Source of the DNA: Olsenella profusa
GTDB lineage: Bacteria; Actinomycetota; Coriobacteriia; Coriobacteriales; Atopobiaceae
NCBI RefSeq assembly: GCF_016900315.1
Contig: NZ_JACSNQ010000010.1
Span: forward strand, 1-64,000
DNA: 64,000 nucleotides
Reading direction: 5' to 3'
Below, piece by piece: positions 6,018 to 56,439 of this stretch. Both the position numbers and the translations under genes were made by a program. Each line of letters starts with the position of its first letter. Position 1 is the first letter of the stretch. The notes beneath the pieces were generated by a model. The model searched no databases. It saw only the letters and a program-made list of their open reading frames with translations, and had not been told where the DNA came from.

Positions 6018-8573
6018 CTACCCCTCAATCTTCACGATGGGCGCAAAGCCCTTGAGCAGCTTCTTCGTCTTGCCCGTGCGCGTGAAGCGGACCTCGATGG
6101 TGTCGCCGGAGGCGGCGAGCACCACGCCCGGGCCGAAGGTCTTGTGGGAGACCTGGTCGCCGGGGGCAAAGCTCGCGGCAGCACGGGCGGCGTCCGGCTT
6201 GGGGCCGGCCGGGGCCTCCCGGCGCGGCGTCACGGGGCGAGAAGAACCTCCCGTCGAGCGCGTGCGCGACCCGAAGACGTTGCCGCCGTAGACCGCGGAC
6301 CCGCGCCCGCTCCCGAAGGTGCCGTGGCGGTCCCCGCGCTTCTCCCAGCCCACGCCGGTGAAGCCCGAGGACCCCACGCCCACGCGCTCCACGTCGGCGT
6401 CGGGGATCTCGTTCAGGAAGCGGCTCGGCGGGTTGGCCTGCACGGAGCCGTAGGTGCGCCGCGTGGTGGCGTGCGTGAGGTAGAGCTTCCTGCGGGCGCG
6501 CGTGATGGCCACGTAGGCCAGGCGCCGCTCCTCCTCCACGGCCGCCGGGTCGCCCTCGTAGGAGGTGTGCGGGAAGATCCCCTCCTCCATGCCGGCCACA
6601 AAGACCACCGGAAACTCCAGGCCCTTGGCCGAGTGGATCGTCATCATCGTCACCGCGTGGCTCTGCCCCGCCAGCGAGTCGAGGTCGCTTCGCAGCGCGA
6701 GCCACTCGATGAGCGCCGGCAGCTTCTCGGAGGCCACGGGCGGCCTGAGCGAGGCAGGCGCCGGGCCCCCGTCCCCAGCGGGCGAATCGCCTTGGCGAGC
6801 GAGCAAAGCGAGCGCTGAGCCCGCTGGGGACGGGGGCACGGTGCCGGACGGCTCAAGTGCCCCGGTAGCCGCTGCGCTAGCGGCGGACTCGCCGTCGAGC
6901 GCCCCCGCCGCCCGCAGCTGCGCCAGGCTCTCGAGCGTCTCCGCCGCGTCGTGCGTCTCGTCGAACTCGGCGGCCACGCCCATAAACTCCTTGATGTTCT
7001 CGATGCGCCCGTCGGCCTCCACGCTGTGCTCGGCCTCCAGCGCGCGCACCAGGCCCGAGCGGTCCACGATGGCGTCCACCACGTCGGCAAGCTCGCCGGT
7101 AAAGTGGCGCCCGGCCTCGATCACGCCGGTGAACTCCGCGAGCGCCGAGCGCACCTTGGCGCCCAGAAGGCCCGTCTCGGCCACCGCCATCTCGCATGCC
7201 GAGAAGAACGAGATCCCCTCGTCGGCCGCGAGCTGGCGGATCTTGTTGATCGAGGTGGTGCCCACGCCGCGCCGCGGGGTGTTGACCACGCGCAGCGCCG
7301 CCACGTCGTCGTCCGGGTTCACCACGAGCTTGAGGTAGGCCATGACGTCGCGGACCTCGGCGCGATCGAAGAAGCGCGTGCCGCCCACGATCTTGTAGGG
7401 CACGCCCGCGCGCAGGAACATGTCCTCGAGGATGCGCGACTGCGCGTTGGTGCGGTAGAAGACGGCCATGTCATCGTAGCTCGTGCCGCCGTCGTGGAGC
7501 CTCTCGATCTCCGAGCCGATCCAGCGGCCCTCGTCGCGCTCGTCGGAGGCCTGGAACACGTGGATCTTCTCGCCGTCCCCGGCGTCAGTGAACAGGCGCT
7601 TGGGCTTGCGCCGCGCGTTGTTGGCTACCACGGCGTTGGCCGCGTTAAGGATGTGGCCCGTGGAGCGGTAGTTCTGCTCGAGGCGCACCACGTGGGCGTC
7701 GGGATAGTCCTTCTCGAAGTCGAGGATGTTCTGGATGTCCGCGCCGCGCCAGCTGTAGATGGACTGGTCGTCGTCGCCCACCACCATGAGGTTGCGGTAG
7801 CGCGCGGCCAGGAGGTTGGTGATCGCGTACTGGACGTGGTTGGTGTCCTGGTACTCGTCCACGCTGATCTGGCGGAAGCGGTCCTGGTAGCGCGCGAGCA
7901 CGTCCTCGTGGCGGGAGAGCAGCTGGTAGGCCTTGACCAGCAGGTCGTCGAAGTCCAGCGCGTTGGCCTTGGCCAGGCGCGTCTCAAGCGCGCGGTAGAC
8001 CCGCCCCGCGGCACGGTCGGCCGGGTTCGACGAGCTCTCCAGCTCCTCGGGCCCCACCAGGGCGTTCTTGGCGGCGGAGATCTTGGCGCGGATGCCGTTC
8101 AGCGGGAACTGCTTGGCGTCGATGTCGAGGTCCGCCATGATCGACTTCACCAGGCGGCGCGAGTCGTCGTCGTCATAGATCGTGAAGTTGGGGCGGTACC
8201 CGGCGAGCTCCGGATCCTCCCGCAGCATCCGCACGCACATGGCGTGGAACGTGCAGACCCACATGCCACGCGTGCCGCCGGCCGGAAGCAGCGCCTCCAG
8301 GCGCTCGCGCATCTCCGCGGCGGCCTTGTTGGTGAACGTGATGGCCAGGACCTGCCACGGGCGGACGCCCTCGTCGGCCACCATGTGCGCGATGCGATAC
8401 GTGAGCACGCGCGTCTTGCCCGAGCCGGCGCCGGCAAGCACCAGCAGCGGCCCGCGCGTGCACTCCGCCGCCTCGCGCTGGGCGGGGTTGAGGCCGTCCA
8501 GGCTGATGACGGGCGCGGCCGGGGCCACGGGGGTGCTGGGAAACAGTGACGTCTGCTCAGGGCTCATCTGCAC
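6018..8573 (-). CDS. pcrA: ATP-dependent DNA helicase PcrA/UvrD
   Basis: An 851-residue superfamily 1 3'-5' helicase for nucleotide excision repair and removal of recombination proteins. Seen are motif Q/I (LNPAQREAA, AGAGSGKTRVLT), Ia (ITFTNKAAAEMRERL), II (VDEYQDTN), III (VVGDDDQSIYSWRGA), IV (LEQNYRS), V (TIHSAKGLEFPVVF) and VI (AYVAITRARRKLYL). A GTG at 8571-8573 is preferred over the ATG two codons later because GAGAGGAA lies at better spacing. Domain 2B carries an extra low-complexity stretch, encoded by a perfect 18-bp-arm palindrome at 6766-6836. The C-terminal DNA/RNA polymerase-binding segment (GDQVSHKTFGPGVV) is present. Confidence 0.95.
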   Translation of the reverse strand: MQMSPEQTSLFPSTPVAPAAPVISLDGLNPAQREAAECTRGPLLVLAGAGSGKTRVLTYRIAHMVADEGVRPWQVLAITFTNKAAAEMRERLEALLPAGGTRGMWVCTFHAMCVRMLREDPELAGYRPNFTIYDDDDSRRLVKSIMADLDIDAKQFPLNGIRAKISAAKNALVGPEELESSSNPADRAAGRVYRALETRLAKANALDFDDLLVKAYQLLSRHEDVLARYQDRFRQISVDEYQDTNHVQYAITNLLAARYRNLMVVGDDDQSIYSWRGADIQNILDFEKDYPDAHVVRLEQNYRSTGHILNAANAVVANNARRKPKRLFTDAGDGEKIHVFQASDERDEGRWIGSEIERLHDGGTSYDDMAVFYRTNAQSRILEDMFLRAGVPYKIVGGTRFFDRAEVRDVMAYLKLVVNPDDDVAALRVVNTPRRGVGTTSINKIRQLAADEGISFFSACEMAVAETGLLGAKVRSALAEFTGVIEAGRHFTGELADVVDAIVDRSGLVRALEAEHSVEADGRIENIKEFMGVAAEFDETHDAAETLESLAQLRAAGALDGESAASAAATGALEPSGTVPPSPAGSALALLARQGDSPAGDGGPAPASLRPPVASEKLPALIEWLALRSDLDSLAGQSHAVTMMTIHSAKGLEFPVVFVAGMEEGIFPHTSYEGDPAAVEEERRLAYVAITRARRKLYLTHATTRRTYGSVQANPPSRFLNEIPDADVERVGVGSSGFTGVGWEKRGDRHGTFGSGRGSAVYGGNVFGSRTRSTGGSSRPVTPRREAPAGPKPDAARAAASFAPGDQVSHKTFGPGVVLAASGDTIEVRFTRTGKTKKLLKGFAPIVKIEG
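6766..6836 (-). repeat. Palindromic element inside pcrA
   Basis: Perfect inverted arms of 18 bp (6766-6783 and 6819-6836, CCCCCGTCCCCAGCGGGC) enclose a 35 nt loop. The element is read in frame and encodes a Pro/Ser/Ala/Gly-rich insertion (PPSPAG ... SPAGDGG) in a surface region of the helicase before motif V. In the coding sense the loop starts GCTCAG then GCTTTGC, like the loops of the intergenic palindromes at 37897 and 47866. Confidence 0.75.
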
Positions 8574-8592: not shown

Positions 8593-8612
8593 CTTCTCGC
8601 CCTACGAGTGTA
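8593..8612 (-). promoter_or_regulatory. pcrA promoter -10 box with downstream GGCGAGAAG motif
   Basis: TACACT (8607-8612, minus strand) is followed after 5 nt by GGCGAGAAGAAC (core 8593-8601), then the pcrA ribosome site. The arrangement matches that at luxS. Confidence 0.5.
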
Positions 8613-8689
8613 GCGGGAGGGGAGGACAAGAGTCCCCGCGCACAGGAAAACACGGCGAGAAGAACCTCGGGGAGCCCGCCGCCTCACGC

Positions 8690-8998
8690 GCTTAGAAAAC
8701 AGCGGCCGATGCGCGCCCGGTGCCCGACCTTGCTTTCAAAAGGAGGGCTGACGCACGCCGCAGGCAGACGGCCGCTTTAAAAACGAGGCCCGATGCACAC
8801 CGGACGCGCCCGCCGCTTACAAAATCACGGCTGACGTACTTCTCGCCCTGCAACGGTCACGACTTTGAAAGCACCTCGGTCACCGGACGCCGCACCGCCC
8901 CCAAATTCGTAAGCAGCACCGCGACGTCAGGCCACCTCGTCCCCAAATTCGTAAGCAGCACCGCGACGCCAGGCCACCTCTCCCGCGATTTTCCAAGC
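8690..8998. repeat. Dyad-symmetric repeat array, family B, about 42 bp period
   Basis: Four units in direct orientation start at 8690, 8732, 8774 and 8815 (GCTTAGAAAACAGCGGCC, GCTTTCAAAAGGAGGGCT, GCTTTAAAAACGAGGCCC, GCTTACAAAATCACGGCT). Four inverted units end at 8872, 8914, 8956 and 8998 (for example CCAAATTCGTAAGC). Steps are 42, 42, 41 and then 42, 42, 42 bp. About 20 bp of each unit is conserved and the rest varies. A GGCGAGAAG copy (reverse, 8839-8847) lies near the centre. The array fills the pcrA-MarR gap (8574-9027); no gene is seen in it. Confidence 0.85.
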
Positions 8999-9027
8999 AG
9001 GAGACAAGGAATGCCCCACGCCCGGCC

Positions 9028-14206: not shown

Positions 14207-14438
14207 GTTGGGAATCCCGTTAGGAATCGCCGCACCTTAGCGCTCCGGCCGCCCCTCACGTTAGAAATCGCCGCGTCTTAGCGACTCGCTCATCCGTTCT
14301 GTTGGGAATCGCCGCATCTTAGCGCTTCACCCGCCCGTTACGTTAGGAATCTCCGCATCTTTGGTCCGCGCGGGCAAAAGGTGCCGCAATTCCTAACCGA
14401 ACAGGCACCCAACGACAAAAGGCACCGCAATTCCTAAC
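14207..14438. repeat. Dyad-symmetric repeat array, family A, 41 bp period
   Basis: Direct units start at 14219, 14260, 14301 and 14342, exactly 41 bp apart (consensus GTTAGGAATCGCCGCATCTT followed by AGCG), with a truncated unit at 14207. Two inverted units end at 14397 and 14438, again 41 bp apart. The innermost pair (14342-14397) can fold into a long hairpin around TTTGGTCCGCGCGGGCAAAA. About 24 bp is conserved per unit and about 17 bp varies. The array lies in the gap from 13914 to 14536; no gene is seen there. Confidence 0.88.
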
Positions 14439-15603: not shown

Positions 15604-15644
15604 GCGAGAAGCCCGCGCGCCGCCCCGACCAACCCGCGCCCACA

Positions 15645-15791
15645 GGGTACGTACACCCGCCACCCAGGGTACGTACACCGCCGCAACCCCAGGGTTCTTC
15701 TCGCCAACTCGTCTACCTGCGGAAACGTCGGGCGGCCCGGCGAGAAGGACGTCGGGGAGTGTACGTACCCTAAAGCGGGGTGTACGTACCC
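15645..15791. repeat. Dyad-symmetric repeat array, family D, 21-22 bp period
   Basis: GGGTACGTACAC occurs at 15645-15656 and 15667-15678, and its inverse GTGTACGTACCC at 15759-15770 and 15780-15791. Steps are 22 and 21 bp. The space between the halves has the GGCGAGAAG motif once in each orientation (15697-15705 reverse, 15739-15747 forward), so the whole region is symmetric at two levels. The rest of 15572-15922 shows no gene. Confidence 0.85.
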
Positions 15792-15922
15792 TGCGGCGGG
15801 CGGGGCGGACGGGGCGGACGGAGGCGTACGGGCCCCGCGGCGGCCCGCCCGTGGCGGCGGCTCGGCCGTGGTCGCGGCCAGGCCAGACTGCGGCCGCCAG
15901 CCAACAACCGGGCCGGACCCGT

Positions 15923-21116: not shown

Positions 21117-21344
21117 AACCTCACAGGTAGTCTGAGTTTTCTGAAAAAAGCTCCTCGTCAATTGGGCAAACGCTCACCTCGCCCTGGAAAAGAGAGACTA
21201 CCTGTGAGGTTCTCTCCCTGTGAGGTTCTCTCCCTGTGAGGTTCTCTCCCTGTGAGGTTCTCTCCCTGTGAGGTTCTCTCCCTGTGAGGTTCTCTCCCTG
21301 TGAGGTTCTCTCCCTGTGAGGTTCTCTCCCTGTGAGGTTTTCTT
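21117..21344. repeat. Nine 16 bp tandem repeats with a distal inverted copy (family E)
   Basis: CCTGTGAGGTTCTCTC is repeated nine times from 21201 to 21344 with a strict 16 bp period; the last copy has drifted. The first copy is extended on its left to AGACTACCTGTGAGGTT (21195-21211), whose perfect 17 bp inverse AACCTCACAGGTAGTCT lies at 21117-21133 with about 60 nt between. The array sits just after the stop of the secreted coiled-coil gene. Open frames across it encode only repetitive peptide and lack ribosome sites. Confidence 0.9.
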
Positions 21345-21385: not shown

Positions 21386-21559
21386 GTTAGAAATCCCCGT
21401 ACCTTTGGCTCGTGCGGGCAAAAGGTACGCCAGTTTCTAACCAAACAGGGTCCCAGCGGCAAAAGGTGTCGCGATTCCTAACGGCGCCTCAGAGCGGCCG
21501 CCCAGATTGACAGCCAGGGCGGACGGCGCTCGGACCAGCCGCCCAGATTGGCAGCCAGG
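21386..21559. repeat. Repeat arrays with 41 bp period (family A, plus a second unit type)
   Basis: One direct family A unit (21386-21408, GTTAGAAATCCCCGTACCTT) is followed by two inverted units ending at 21441 and 21482, 41 bp apart. The first two pair around TTTGGCTCGTGCGGGCAAAA, nearly the same centre as in the 14.2 kb array. A different unit, GCCGCCCAGATTGACAGCCA, follows at 21497 and again at 21538, also exactly 41 bp apart. No gene is seen between 21077 and 21654. Confidence 0.85.
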
Positions 21560-22614: not shown

Positions 22615-23011
22615 GCGTCCCCCTCCTCCGGAATGTGCCCGCGATAGCCTAGCACGTCGCCCGCCGGCGTGGAGGGGTCGTCCGGGCAGGCGCGGGGCGG
22701 GCAGGTGTGAGGTAGGCAGGCGCAGGACCGGCGAGGTGAGGGGGCTGCCGCACGTCTGAGGTCACGTCTGTGCACAGGCTGCCGGCACCCCCGCTCCACA
22801 ATTGCGCATCTGTGGTGGCGAGAAGAACCCTCCGCTCGAAAATCGCGCCTCCTGTGCGCTCAGATGGCGCTCAAACCGGACAAATCCCGCTCAGGACCAC
22901 ACAGTTCGCCTTCTGTGCAACGCCGATGCACGGCGCGCGGCGTCTTCCGCGCGCCGGCCCCGCGACCGTGGGGTATCCTCGACTCTGTGAACACGAACCC
23001 GGGAGGTCCCC
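22615..23011. other. Non-coding gap before the M16C protease gene
   Basis: No gene or regular array. It contains one GGCGAGAAG copy (22817-22825) and several scattered CTGTGCG/TGAGCG repeats near 22840-22920. A TATCCT -10-like box lies at about 22975, roughly 35 bp before the protease start. Confidence 0.4.
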
Positions 23012-37989: not shown

Positions 37990-38060
37990 CGCGAGTCTTT
38001 CTGTGCAGCGCACGGGCGCGCCTGTCGCGGCCCGCACGTTCTTCTCGGTTGTTCTAGTCT

Positions 38061-38112
38061 GGTTGTCCTTCTTGGTTGTCCTTCTTGGTTGTCCTTCTTG
38101 GTTGTCCTTCTT
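38061..38112. repeat. Four 13 bp tandem repeats
   Basis: GGTTGTCCTTCTT occurs four times without a gap at 38061, 38074, 38087 and 38100; a fifth degenerate copy may precede them. It ends 14 bp before the start of the ACT-domain gene, so repeat-number change could alter its leader. A frame reads through the repeats but the ribosome site supports the later GTG. Confidence 0.85.
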
Positions 38113-45725: not shown

Positions 45726-46027
45726 GTTAGAAATCGGGGTACGTTGTGCTCGCCGGCTGCGTCGACGTTAGGAATCTGGGCGTGCTGCGCCTAGAGACGG
45801 ATGGCCCGTTAGGAATCTTGGCATGTTGCATTCGCCGGTCACGCCAGCGTTAGGAATTGCAGCAAGTTATGCCCGGAGAGGGACAATTCGTTAGGAACCC
45901 GGGCATGTTTTGGTCATGCGACCATAACATACGGCGATTCCTAACCCGTCGCGCCGCCGCAGCCACAACATGCGGCGATTCCTAACGCGTCAGAACGCCA
46001 CGGCTACAACACGCCAAAATTCCTAAC
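45726..46027. repeat. Dyad-symmetric repeat array, family A, exact 41 bp period
   Basis: Five direct units start at 45726, 45767, 45808, 45849 and 45890; three inverted units end at 45945, 45986 and 46027. Every step is exactly 41 bp. The conserved part is 23 bp (GTTAGGAATCNNGGCATGTT then GTG or similar), leaving 18 bp that differ between units. The orientation flips at about 45917. Spacers do not look related to each other. The array occupies the gap from 45573 to 46100; no gene is seen. Confidence 0.92.
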
Positions 46028-52256: not shown

Positions 52257-52373
52257 GGGCGCGGGGGCCGGCCGCGTCGGCCGCCGGTCCTTCTCGCCGT
52301 GCCAGCCGTCGCCTGCCGTGCCGCACGTCGCCTTCCGGCCGTCGCCATCCGCCCTTCGGCCTTCGGCCTCCGA

Positions 52374-52502
52374 GGGTACGTACACAATTGTAAATTTGAT
52401 TAATCCCCCAACAACCTCTCTAGCTGGGGTTTCTTTGAACGAGCCTCAAAATGCGGCCCGAAATTGTGTACGTACCCTCCCGGCGGGCTTGTGTACGTAC
52501 CC
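52374..52502. repeat. Repeat array, family D, with AT-rich insert
   Basis: GGGTACGTACAC (52374-52385) is followed by two inverted copies, GTGTACGTACCC, at 52466-52477 and 52491-52502. The outer pair extends to 16 bp by ACAATT/AATTGT. Between them lies an 80 bp AT-richer segment with CCCC...GGGGTTTCTTT, a weak terminator-like stem. It is the second family D locus in the window. Confidence 0.75.
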
Positions 52503-52560
52503 TTCCGGCAGGTCCGCTCAACCGCAGGGTTCAGCGACGGCACCGAGGAAGGCCGTTCGG

Positions 52561-56120: not shown

Positions 56121-56439
56121 GCTTTGAGAATCGCGGCCGTTGCGCCCCTGGGCACGCCGGGTGCTTTCAAAATGGCGACTGTTGCGTCTACGACCCCTCC
56201 GGGCGCTTACGAATTCACGCCCGTTGCGGCATCCGGGGGCCGCCAGGCCGCAACAGCCTATGTTTTCAAAACGCGCAGGCCCCTCAAACTCGTAACAGCT
56301 ACGCTTCTCTAAGCACCGCCCTAGCCCAAAGCTGCAACGGCCGGACTTTCCTAAGCACCACCCAAGCCCTAAGCCGCAACGGGTGAACTTCTCTAAGCAA
56401 CAACGGCGTCTATGCTGCAACGCCCGCCACATCCAAAGC
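56121..56439. repeat. Dyad-symmetric repeat array, family B, about 42 bp period
   Basis: Direct units start at 56121, 56163 and 56205 (GCTTTGAGAATCGCGGCCGT, GCTTTCAAAATGGCGACTGT, GCTTACGAATTCACGCCCGT), 42 bp apart, with a possible partial unit at 56083. Inverted units end at 56274, 56314, 56356, 56398 and 56439, steps 40, 42, 42 and 41. GTTGCG or its inverse CGCAAC/TGCAAC is the second conserved block. It is the same family as the array at 8.7-9.0 kb. The gap 56078-56636 shows no gene. Confidence 0.85.

Follow-up and report, generated by a model that had tools for sequence, protein, structure and literature searches.

Centre-facing, helically phased repeat arrays of Olsenella profusa and their pairing with a family of nuclease-like proteins

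Introduction

Upstream of the pcrA promoter in Olsenella profusa, eight short repeat units are laid out about a centre, four in direct and then four in inverted orientation. What is this array, and what could have produced and kept it? A first-pass annotation had described the units by a 9-mer and judged their symmetric four-plus-four layout not to be expected from replication slippage. We analysed the array within its window, that is, the whole stretch of 64,000 nucleotides at the start of contig NZ_JACSNQ010000010.1, together with further loci of the same genome and of related genomes.

Results

Anatomy of the array

The eight units were found exactly where the first-pass annotation had placed them (starts at 8690, 8732, 8774 and 8815, ends at 8872, 8914, 8956 and 8998). 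The proposed step of 41–42 bp held in both halves, with 42, 42 and 41 bp between direct units and 42, 42 and 42 bp between inverted units. The true unit, a 24-bp site plus a linker of 17–18 bp, was longer than the 9-mer. The sites define what we call family B, with the consensus GCTT[A/T][C/G]RAA..CGCGGCYGTTGCR, and the two innermost ones face each other in a palindromic core. The locus reads as follows:

6018..8567, minus strand: pcrA/uvrD-type helicase gene, with the array upstream of its promoter
8690..8713, plus strand: direct site 1, family B, 24 bp, matrix score 29.0 bits
8732..8755, plus strand: direct site 2, family B, 25.5 bits
8774..8797, plus strand: direct site 3, family B, 23.2 bits
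8815..8838, plus strand: direct site 4, family B, left half of the core, 28.4 bits
8815..8872, no strand: palindromic core of 58 bp, the two innermost sites facing; includes ACTTCTCGCC (GGCGAGAAGT on the minus strand)
8849..8872, minus strand: inverted site 1, family B, right half of the core, 27.0 bits
8891..8914, minus strand: inverted site 2, family B, 25.1 bits
8933..8956, minus strand: inverted site 3, family B, 18.7 bits
8975..8998, minus strand: inverted site 4, family B, 14.1 bits
9028..9492, minus strand: marR-like regulator gene, with the array just beyond its 3' end

Over the eight units, mean pairwise identity was 63% for the 24-bp sites and 32% for the linkers, the random expectation being 28%. 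A family B matrix gave all eight units scores of 14–29 bits and found 0 sites in 64 kb of shuffled sequence. TRF reported 95% matches at 8899–8984, within the outer units. A CRISPR array was considered and rejected, since the sites vary and half of them are inverted.

The first-pass annotation had also pointed to a GGCGAGAAG motif near the centre. This motif does lie in the core here, on the minus strand at 8839–8847, but a GGCGAGAAG-like centre occurred in only about half of the family B cores, and further copies stood beyond the array at 8593 and 8654. We noticed that GGCGAGAAG is strongly over-represented in the window (54 copies per 64 kb, both strands) and that the longer GGTTCTTCTCGCC/GGCGAGAAGAACC turned up repeatedly near promoters and start sites as well as in linkers and the cores of arrays (in the window and at loci L210 and L239).

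Direct-then-inverted arrays throughout the genome

The layout was not peculiar to this locus. In the same genome, the paired pattern occurred 39 + 36 times, as against 0 + 0 for a reversed control pattern. The site matrix found 28 family B arrays, and 27 were in order after regrouping (208 kb of fetched loci). A second family, A, with GTTAGGAATCGCCGCATCTTAG sites, gave 30 arrays by matrix in the same 208 kb, about 25 of them ordered, and the genome holds further array families besides these two. The direct units preceded the inverted ones in 26 of 28 B arrays and 25 of 30 A arrays; the remainder were halves split by the grouping, or mixed neighbours, so that ordered arrays followed the rule without exception. 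In the window, the other members were:

14219..14438, no strand: family A array, GTTAGGAATCGCCGCATCTTAG, step 41 bp, core of 56 bp
15640..15800, no strand: family C element, AGGGTACGTACACC sites, step 21–22 bp, one of about 24 dispersed copies
21386..21482, no strand: family A array
45726..46027, no strand: family A array, 5 direct and 3 inverted units
52372..52512, no strand: family C sites around an unrelated core
56121..56439, no strand: second family B array of the window, 3 direct and 5 inverted units

Other repeats of the window stood apart from these. At 2406–2704 lies an array of imperfect palindromes (GGACGTT..AAACCGTCC) with a 62-bp step and a different architecture; 61-bp arrays resembling it are present in genomes G003, G115 and G069, and comparison of the flanks of gene loci found no cognate gene for this family. 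A nearly perfect 16-bp tandem repeat, CCTGTGAGGTTCTCTC, of about 9 copies (21201–21343) adjoins a family A array, and an intergenic 13-bp tandem repeat, CTTCTTGGTTGTC, has about 5 copies (38041–38112). The CCGCTCGAAAATCGCGCCTCCTGTGC-like units at about 22780–22930 may be akin to the family that flanks the paralogue on contig C13 (L318).

The equality of the two sides at 8690–8998 turned out to be nothing special, as 8 of 27 B arrays had equal sides when 5.7 were expected (P 0.17). The verdict on slippage survived in part. The direct-then-inverted layout about a centre recurs throughout the genome and in sister species, which exceeds what slippage would produce. Yet slippage does contribute, because neighbouring outer units can have common linkers and other arrays hold exact or near-exact duplicate units. 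Could these be ordinary minisatellites, the product of slippage and template switching, without any protein partner? The common linkers do indicate recent tandem duplication of some neighbouring units. However, slippage leaves unexplained the sites shared genome-wide amid unrelated linkers, the single orientation, and the helical steps and gene pairing described below, and we regard this as the least probable explanation of all.

Helical phasing

The geometry of the arrays was constrained. Family A steps were mostly 41 bp, and A cores were good palindromes, 56 bp long in 25 of 28 measured. Family B steps were 42 or 41 bp, with cores of 58 or 67–69 bp and a few at 78, 88–89, 109–110 and 131 bp. 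These B core lengths form a ladder of one helical turn (R 0.89 at 10.5; P 0.00015 on distinct values). Over all species and families, the steps took values about 10.4 bp apart (31, 41, 52, 62). Indeed, among 58 intergenic repeats whose step was at least 28 bp, taken from the window and from 20-kb stretches of 12 congeners, steps clustered at 31, 40–42, 52–53, 61–63 and about 80–82 bp. The best period was 10.25 (R 0.65, 58 arrays), while the maximum R in 3000 uniform or jittered nulls was 0.43. The sites of an array therefore share one face of the helix, and the fact that motifs differ between families while the phase is common points to proteins lying on one face of B-DNA.

The genes flanking the arrays showed every orientation (++ 17, -- 11, +- 12, -+ 7), and on this ground a regulon or terminator role was rejected. 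The same evidence bears on the idea that the arrays act as RNA, whether as terminators, hairpins or small RNAs. Inverted halves could pair, and the A cores are good palindromes. Nevertheless, the predicted fold of the 8640–9010 transcript was no better than that of shuffles (z +0.68), Rfam covariance models gave 0 matches across the 64-kb window, the steps match the period of B-DNA (about 10.4 bp), whereas A-form RNA would call for 11 bp, and convergent, divergent and tandem gene contexts all occur. An RNA role thus seems very improbable.

Phasing is also what a chromosome-organising or regulatory nucleoprotein system would display. DNA-binding paralogues, perhaps with an inactive nuclease fold, would each assemble on their phased arrays and so insulate genes or shape the nucleoid, and the arrays would be kept by selection rather than by their own spread. 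Strict helical phasing, fixed core geometry, intergenic position in all gene orientations, and conserved sites with variable linkers all argue for such a system, to which we return below.

Each tested array family pairs with one paralogue

Which protein might read these sites? On contig C8 of the same genome, a gene at 18.7–19.8 kb sits between two family A arrays. Six further paralogues bring the genome to 7 copies, and the arrays adjoining these six fall into different families. A profile built from the paralogues found 7–17 members in each of six congeners. Of 149 genomes sampled in the order, 121 had homologues, with up to 16 in a single genome (gene calls beyond the window were made with a simple codon-usage finder written for the analysis).

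Repeat units common to both flanks were found for 28 of 37 family genes, compared with 5 of 42 genes from outside the family (Fisher P 6e-9). We then ran site matrices over all 37 gene loci. For A and B, the training arrays came from outside contig C8; the sites for C came from the window. Single stray matches aside, the A matrix recognized only L319 (6 + 6 sites), the B matrix only L336 (7 + 10) and the B-like L326 (1 + 5), and the C matrix L320 and L330 alone, apart from a trace at L337. Each tested array family is thus paired with one nuclease-like paralogue, whose gene is located between arrays of its own family.

Motif sharing followed protein identity: motifs were shared in 7 of 7 protein pairs at 70% identity or more, in 1 of 11 at 55–70% and in 1 of 447 below that (2 of 458 under 70%). 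Several of the pairs at 70% or more are orthologous loci, and part of the motif sharing is therefore common descent. The family genes appear to keep to stable, syntenic positions rather than to move. At one such locus they have evolved much faster than their neighbours. At this syntenic locus, that of L319 (own genome, G000), L326 (G003), L328 (G078) and L331 (G055), neighbouring DNA was 81–88% identical, whereas the proteins were just 51–58% identical and the flanking motifs differed.

Not all members were alike. A diverged seventh paralogue, L323 (C31:60598–61407), had no clear multi-unit array, and its 3' flank carried a single palindrome, GGGAAATTAATCCACATTT..AAATGTGGATTAATTTCCC. Four congener paralogues (L337, L339, L343 and L346) each carried a single in-frame stop within the matched stretch; some of these genes may be decaying, or the matched stretch may overrun the start or end of the gene.

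Family B offered a view of the history of such a locus. Its gene is L336 of the sister genome G128, located between two B arrays. In the own genome, a solo B array (C8:5631–6111) has the same flanking genes as L336, with 91% identity on both sides, and both a profile search and a search with the sister's protein found the B gene absent from the own assembly (93% complete). Three histories would fit: recombination between the two arrays removed the gene here, G128 acquired it, or the gene falls within a gap of the assembly. Recombination between flanking arrays, deleting the gene and leaving a solo array, would explain why B arrays occur here without a B gene.

Nuclease-like features of the paired proteins

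The paired proteins have about 320–375 residues. Their E184 (in SPxE), D228 (in PD), Y246, H251 and D260 are invariant or nearly so, the E, D and H being invariant and D260 near-invariant. The order SPxE, PD, EY, H, D would fit nucleases of the Vsr/DUF559 type, though matches were weak. Pfam MTES_1575 matched 5 of 32 members (best 1e-6) and DUF559 1 of 32; members from the own genome stayed under the curated Pfam cut-offs (best 20.7 bits against 38.2 for MTES_1575, and 14.2 against 20.6 for DUF559). The sole PDB profile match, to the mobile intron protein 3r3p, which we take to be I-Bth0305I, was not significant (E 0.92), and hhalign gave E. coli Vsr an E of 0.031 with low probability. No transposase match was found in Pfam, NCBIfam, PADLOC or PHROGs. 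In the open-access literature, we found no paper linking Vsr-like or DUF559 proteins to repeat arrays.

A family of nuclease-like proteins, with several diverged members in each genome, could also serve defence or competition: the nuclease would attack invading DNA or rival elements, and its arrays would function as decoys, boundaries or a self mark. The divergence of same-locus orthologues against conserved neighbouring DNA, as in an arms race, would agree with this. However, the paired proteins had no PADLOC match and no meaningful PHROG match, and array number is far above what decoys would need. No similar arrays were found in phage and plasmid collections either, and 3 exact pattern matches in viral contigs were plausibly due to chance given the size of the set. 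We consider a defensive role improbable. A phage or plasmid origin of the arrays was likewise rejected, as no similar DNA was found in those collections.

Turnover of the arrays and copying of family C

The first-pass annotation had looked to relatives for conserved symmetry and for gain or loss of unit pairs. At the 8690–8998 locus itself, nothing could be matched: no array whatever stood upstream of pcrA in the sister G128, whose PcrA is 95% identical, nor in G003. Other congeners carried arrays of other families at that position, likewise direct-then-inverted. At orthologous array loci of the own genome and G128, some arrays aligned unit by unit and some were fully turned over; orientation and phase were kept, but unit numbers differed and centres were not kept. 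For the first-pass proposal, the outcome of this comparison is therefore mixed. One pair of loci had another history. Between L165 (C42:96455–96641) of the own genome and L220 of G128, the right half and its flank were about 96% identical, and the left half and left flank were unrelated; this mismatch is a rearrangement breakpoint, a synteny break inside the array centre.

Family C provided direct evidence of copying. It comprises about 24 copies of an element of about 150 bp, 74–95% identical through the core, with unrelated flanks. Its minimal form has one site per side of the core, and outer sites are added in varying number. Family C was thus recently dispersed, and near-identical copies at unrelated loci, a MITE-like trait, were seen in this family alone. 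A and B arrays at different loci had no common linkers, and recent whole-array copying is therefore established for family C alone. A within-genome DNA similarity search for family B returned short pieces only; the B arrays are therefore not recent copies of one another.

These data weigh on the nucleoprotein system considered above. The conserved loci of the genes would favour it. In contrast, turnover is fast, to the point that the 8690–8998 array is missing from the closest sister and from G003, family C consists of recently dispersed copies, and the residues retained in the proteins are of catalytic type. Moreover, the motif differs between sister species even where the genes are orthologous, and therefore no particular array is conserved. 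We regard a structural or regulatory role as unlikely, albeit the most serious of the alternatives.

Discussion

What, then, is the array upstream of pcrA? We propose that it is probably a non-autonomous intergenic element of family B, bound, spread or maintained via a cognate nuclease-like protein, in a logic akin to that of REPINs and RAYTs with an unrelated enzyme. The best-supported part of the mechanism, as read from the sequence, is binding. The 24-bp sites are the predicted binding sites of one specific member of the nuclease-like family. Two protomers would face each other on the palindromic core (56–69 bp), and further protomers would bind outward on the same DNA face, every four helical turns, to make a phased assembly centred on the core. 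The protein may then cut or nick at or near the core, and repair or recombination may place copies of arrays, and occasionally of the gene, in further intergenic regions. Slippage would add and remove outer units, and recombination between flanking arrays would at times delete the gene and leave a solo array. Against this reading weigh the faint homology to Vsr and EDxHD proteins, the absence of a B gene from the own assembly, the seemingly fixed position of the genes, the common descent behind some of the high-identity protein pairs, and the finding of recent whole-array copying in family C alone.

A broader proposal, to which we would give an even chance, is that a new class of self-spreading element exists in this order: families of phased arrays, every family being copied and maintained through a nuclease of its own, of the Vsr/EDxHD type, encoded at a fixed locus between two of these arrays, with enzyme and site co-evolving so fast that sister species differ in motif at the same locus. 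Sequence alone does not discriminate between a selfish, a structural and a defensive role.

The weak profile matches to DUF559 (PF04480) and REase_MTES_1575 (PF18741) cover the nuclease-like part and come with the shared order SPxE, PD, EY, H, D, although our proteins fall under the curated Pfam cut-offs. To our knowledge, neither family has a known association with repeats. BOX elements are modular and intergenic and vary in the number of their internal units; here, by contrast, there is a cognate gene family, and the units point towards a centre and keep helical phase. With EDxHD homing endonucleases of the I-Bth0305I type, the paired proteins may share a Vsr-like nuclease fold. According to a review, I-Bth0305I forms a dimer on its target, which measures nearly 60 bp (PMC3943268), and by analogy a target of that length would suit cores of 56–58 bp. 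However, the genes described here lie outside introns, and their sites flank the gene in arrays and occur in dozens of dispersed copies.

The closest comparison is with REPINs, which are doublets of REP sequences with a cognate REP-associated tyrosine transposase, the RAYT (PMC3116915). Both systems have a kept gene family of which each member is paired with its own dispersed, intergenic, non-autonomous repeats, and both show inverted pairs, genes near repeats and repeat divergence between relatives. They differ in that the proteins here gave no match to tyrosine transposases (Y1, HUH), with a weak likeness to Vsr/DUF559 instead, and in that asymmetric 24-mers in phased multi-unit arrays stand in place of short hairpin-forming palindromes. 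We place our system outside REPIN/RAYT because the enzyme differs and the array RNA does not behave as a hairpin.

The arrays and the nuclease-like family look like a new gene-plus-dispersed-repeat system. If this is true, it would be a second, independent invention of the REPIN/RAYT-like arrangement, with another enzyme and another DNA architecture. Since same-locus orthologues go with different motifs, the system offers natural protein–site pairs of changing specificity, in which co-evolution is directly testable. It would also account for many long intergenic regions of these gut bacteria, which would otherwise be taken for unexplained minisatellites.
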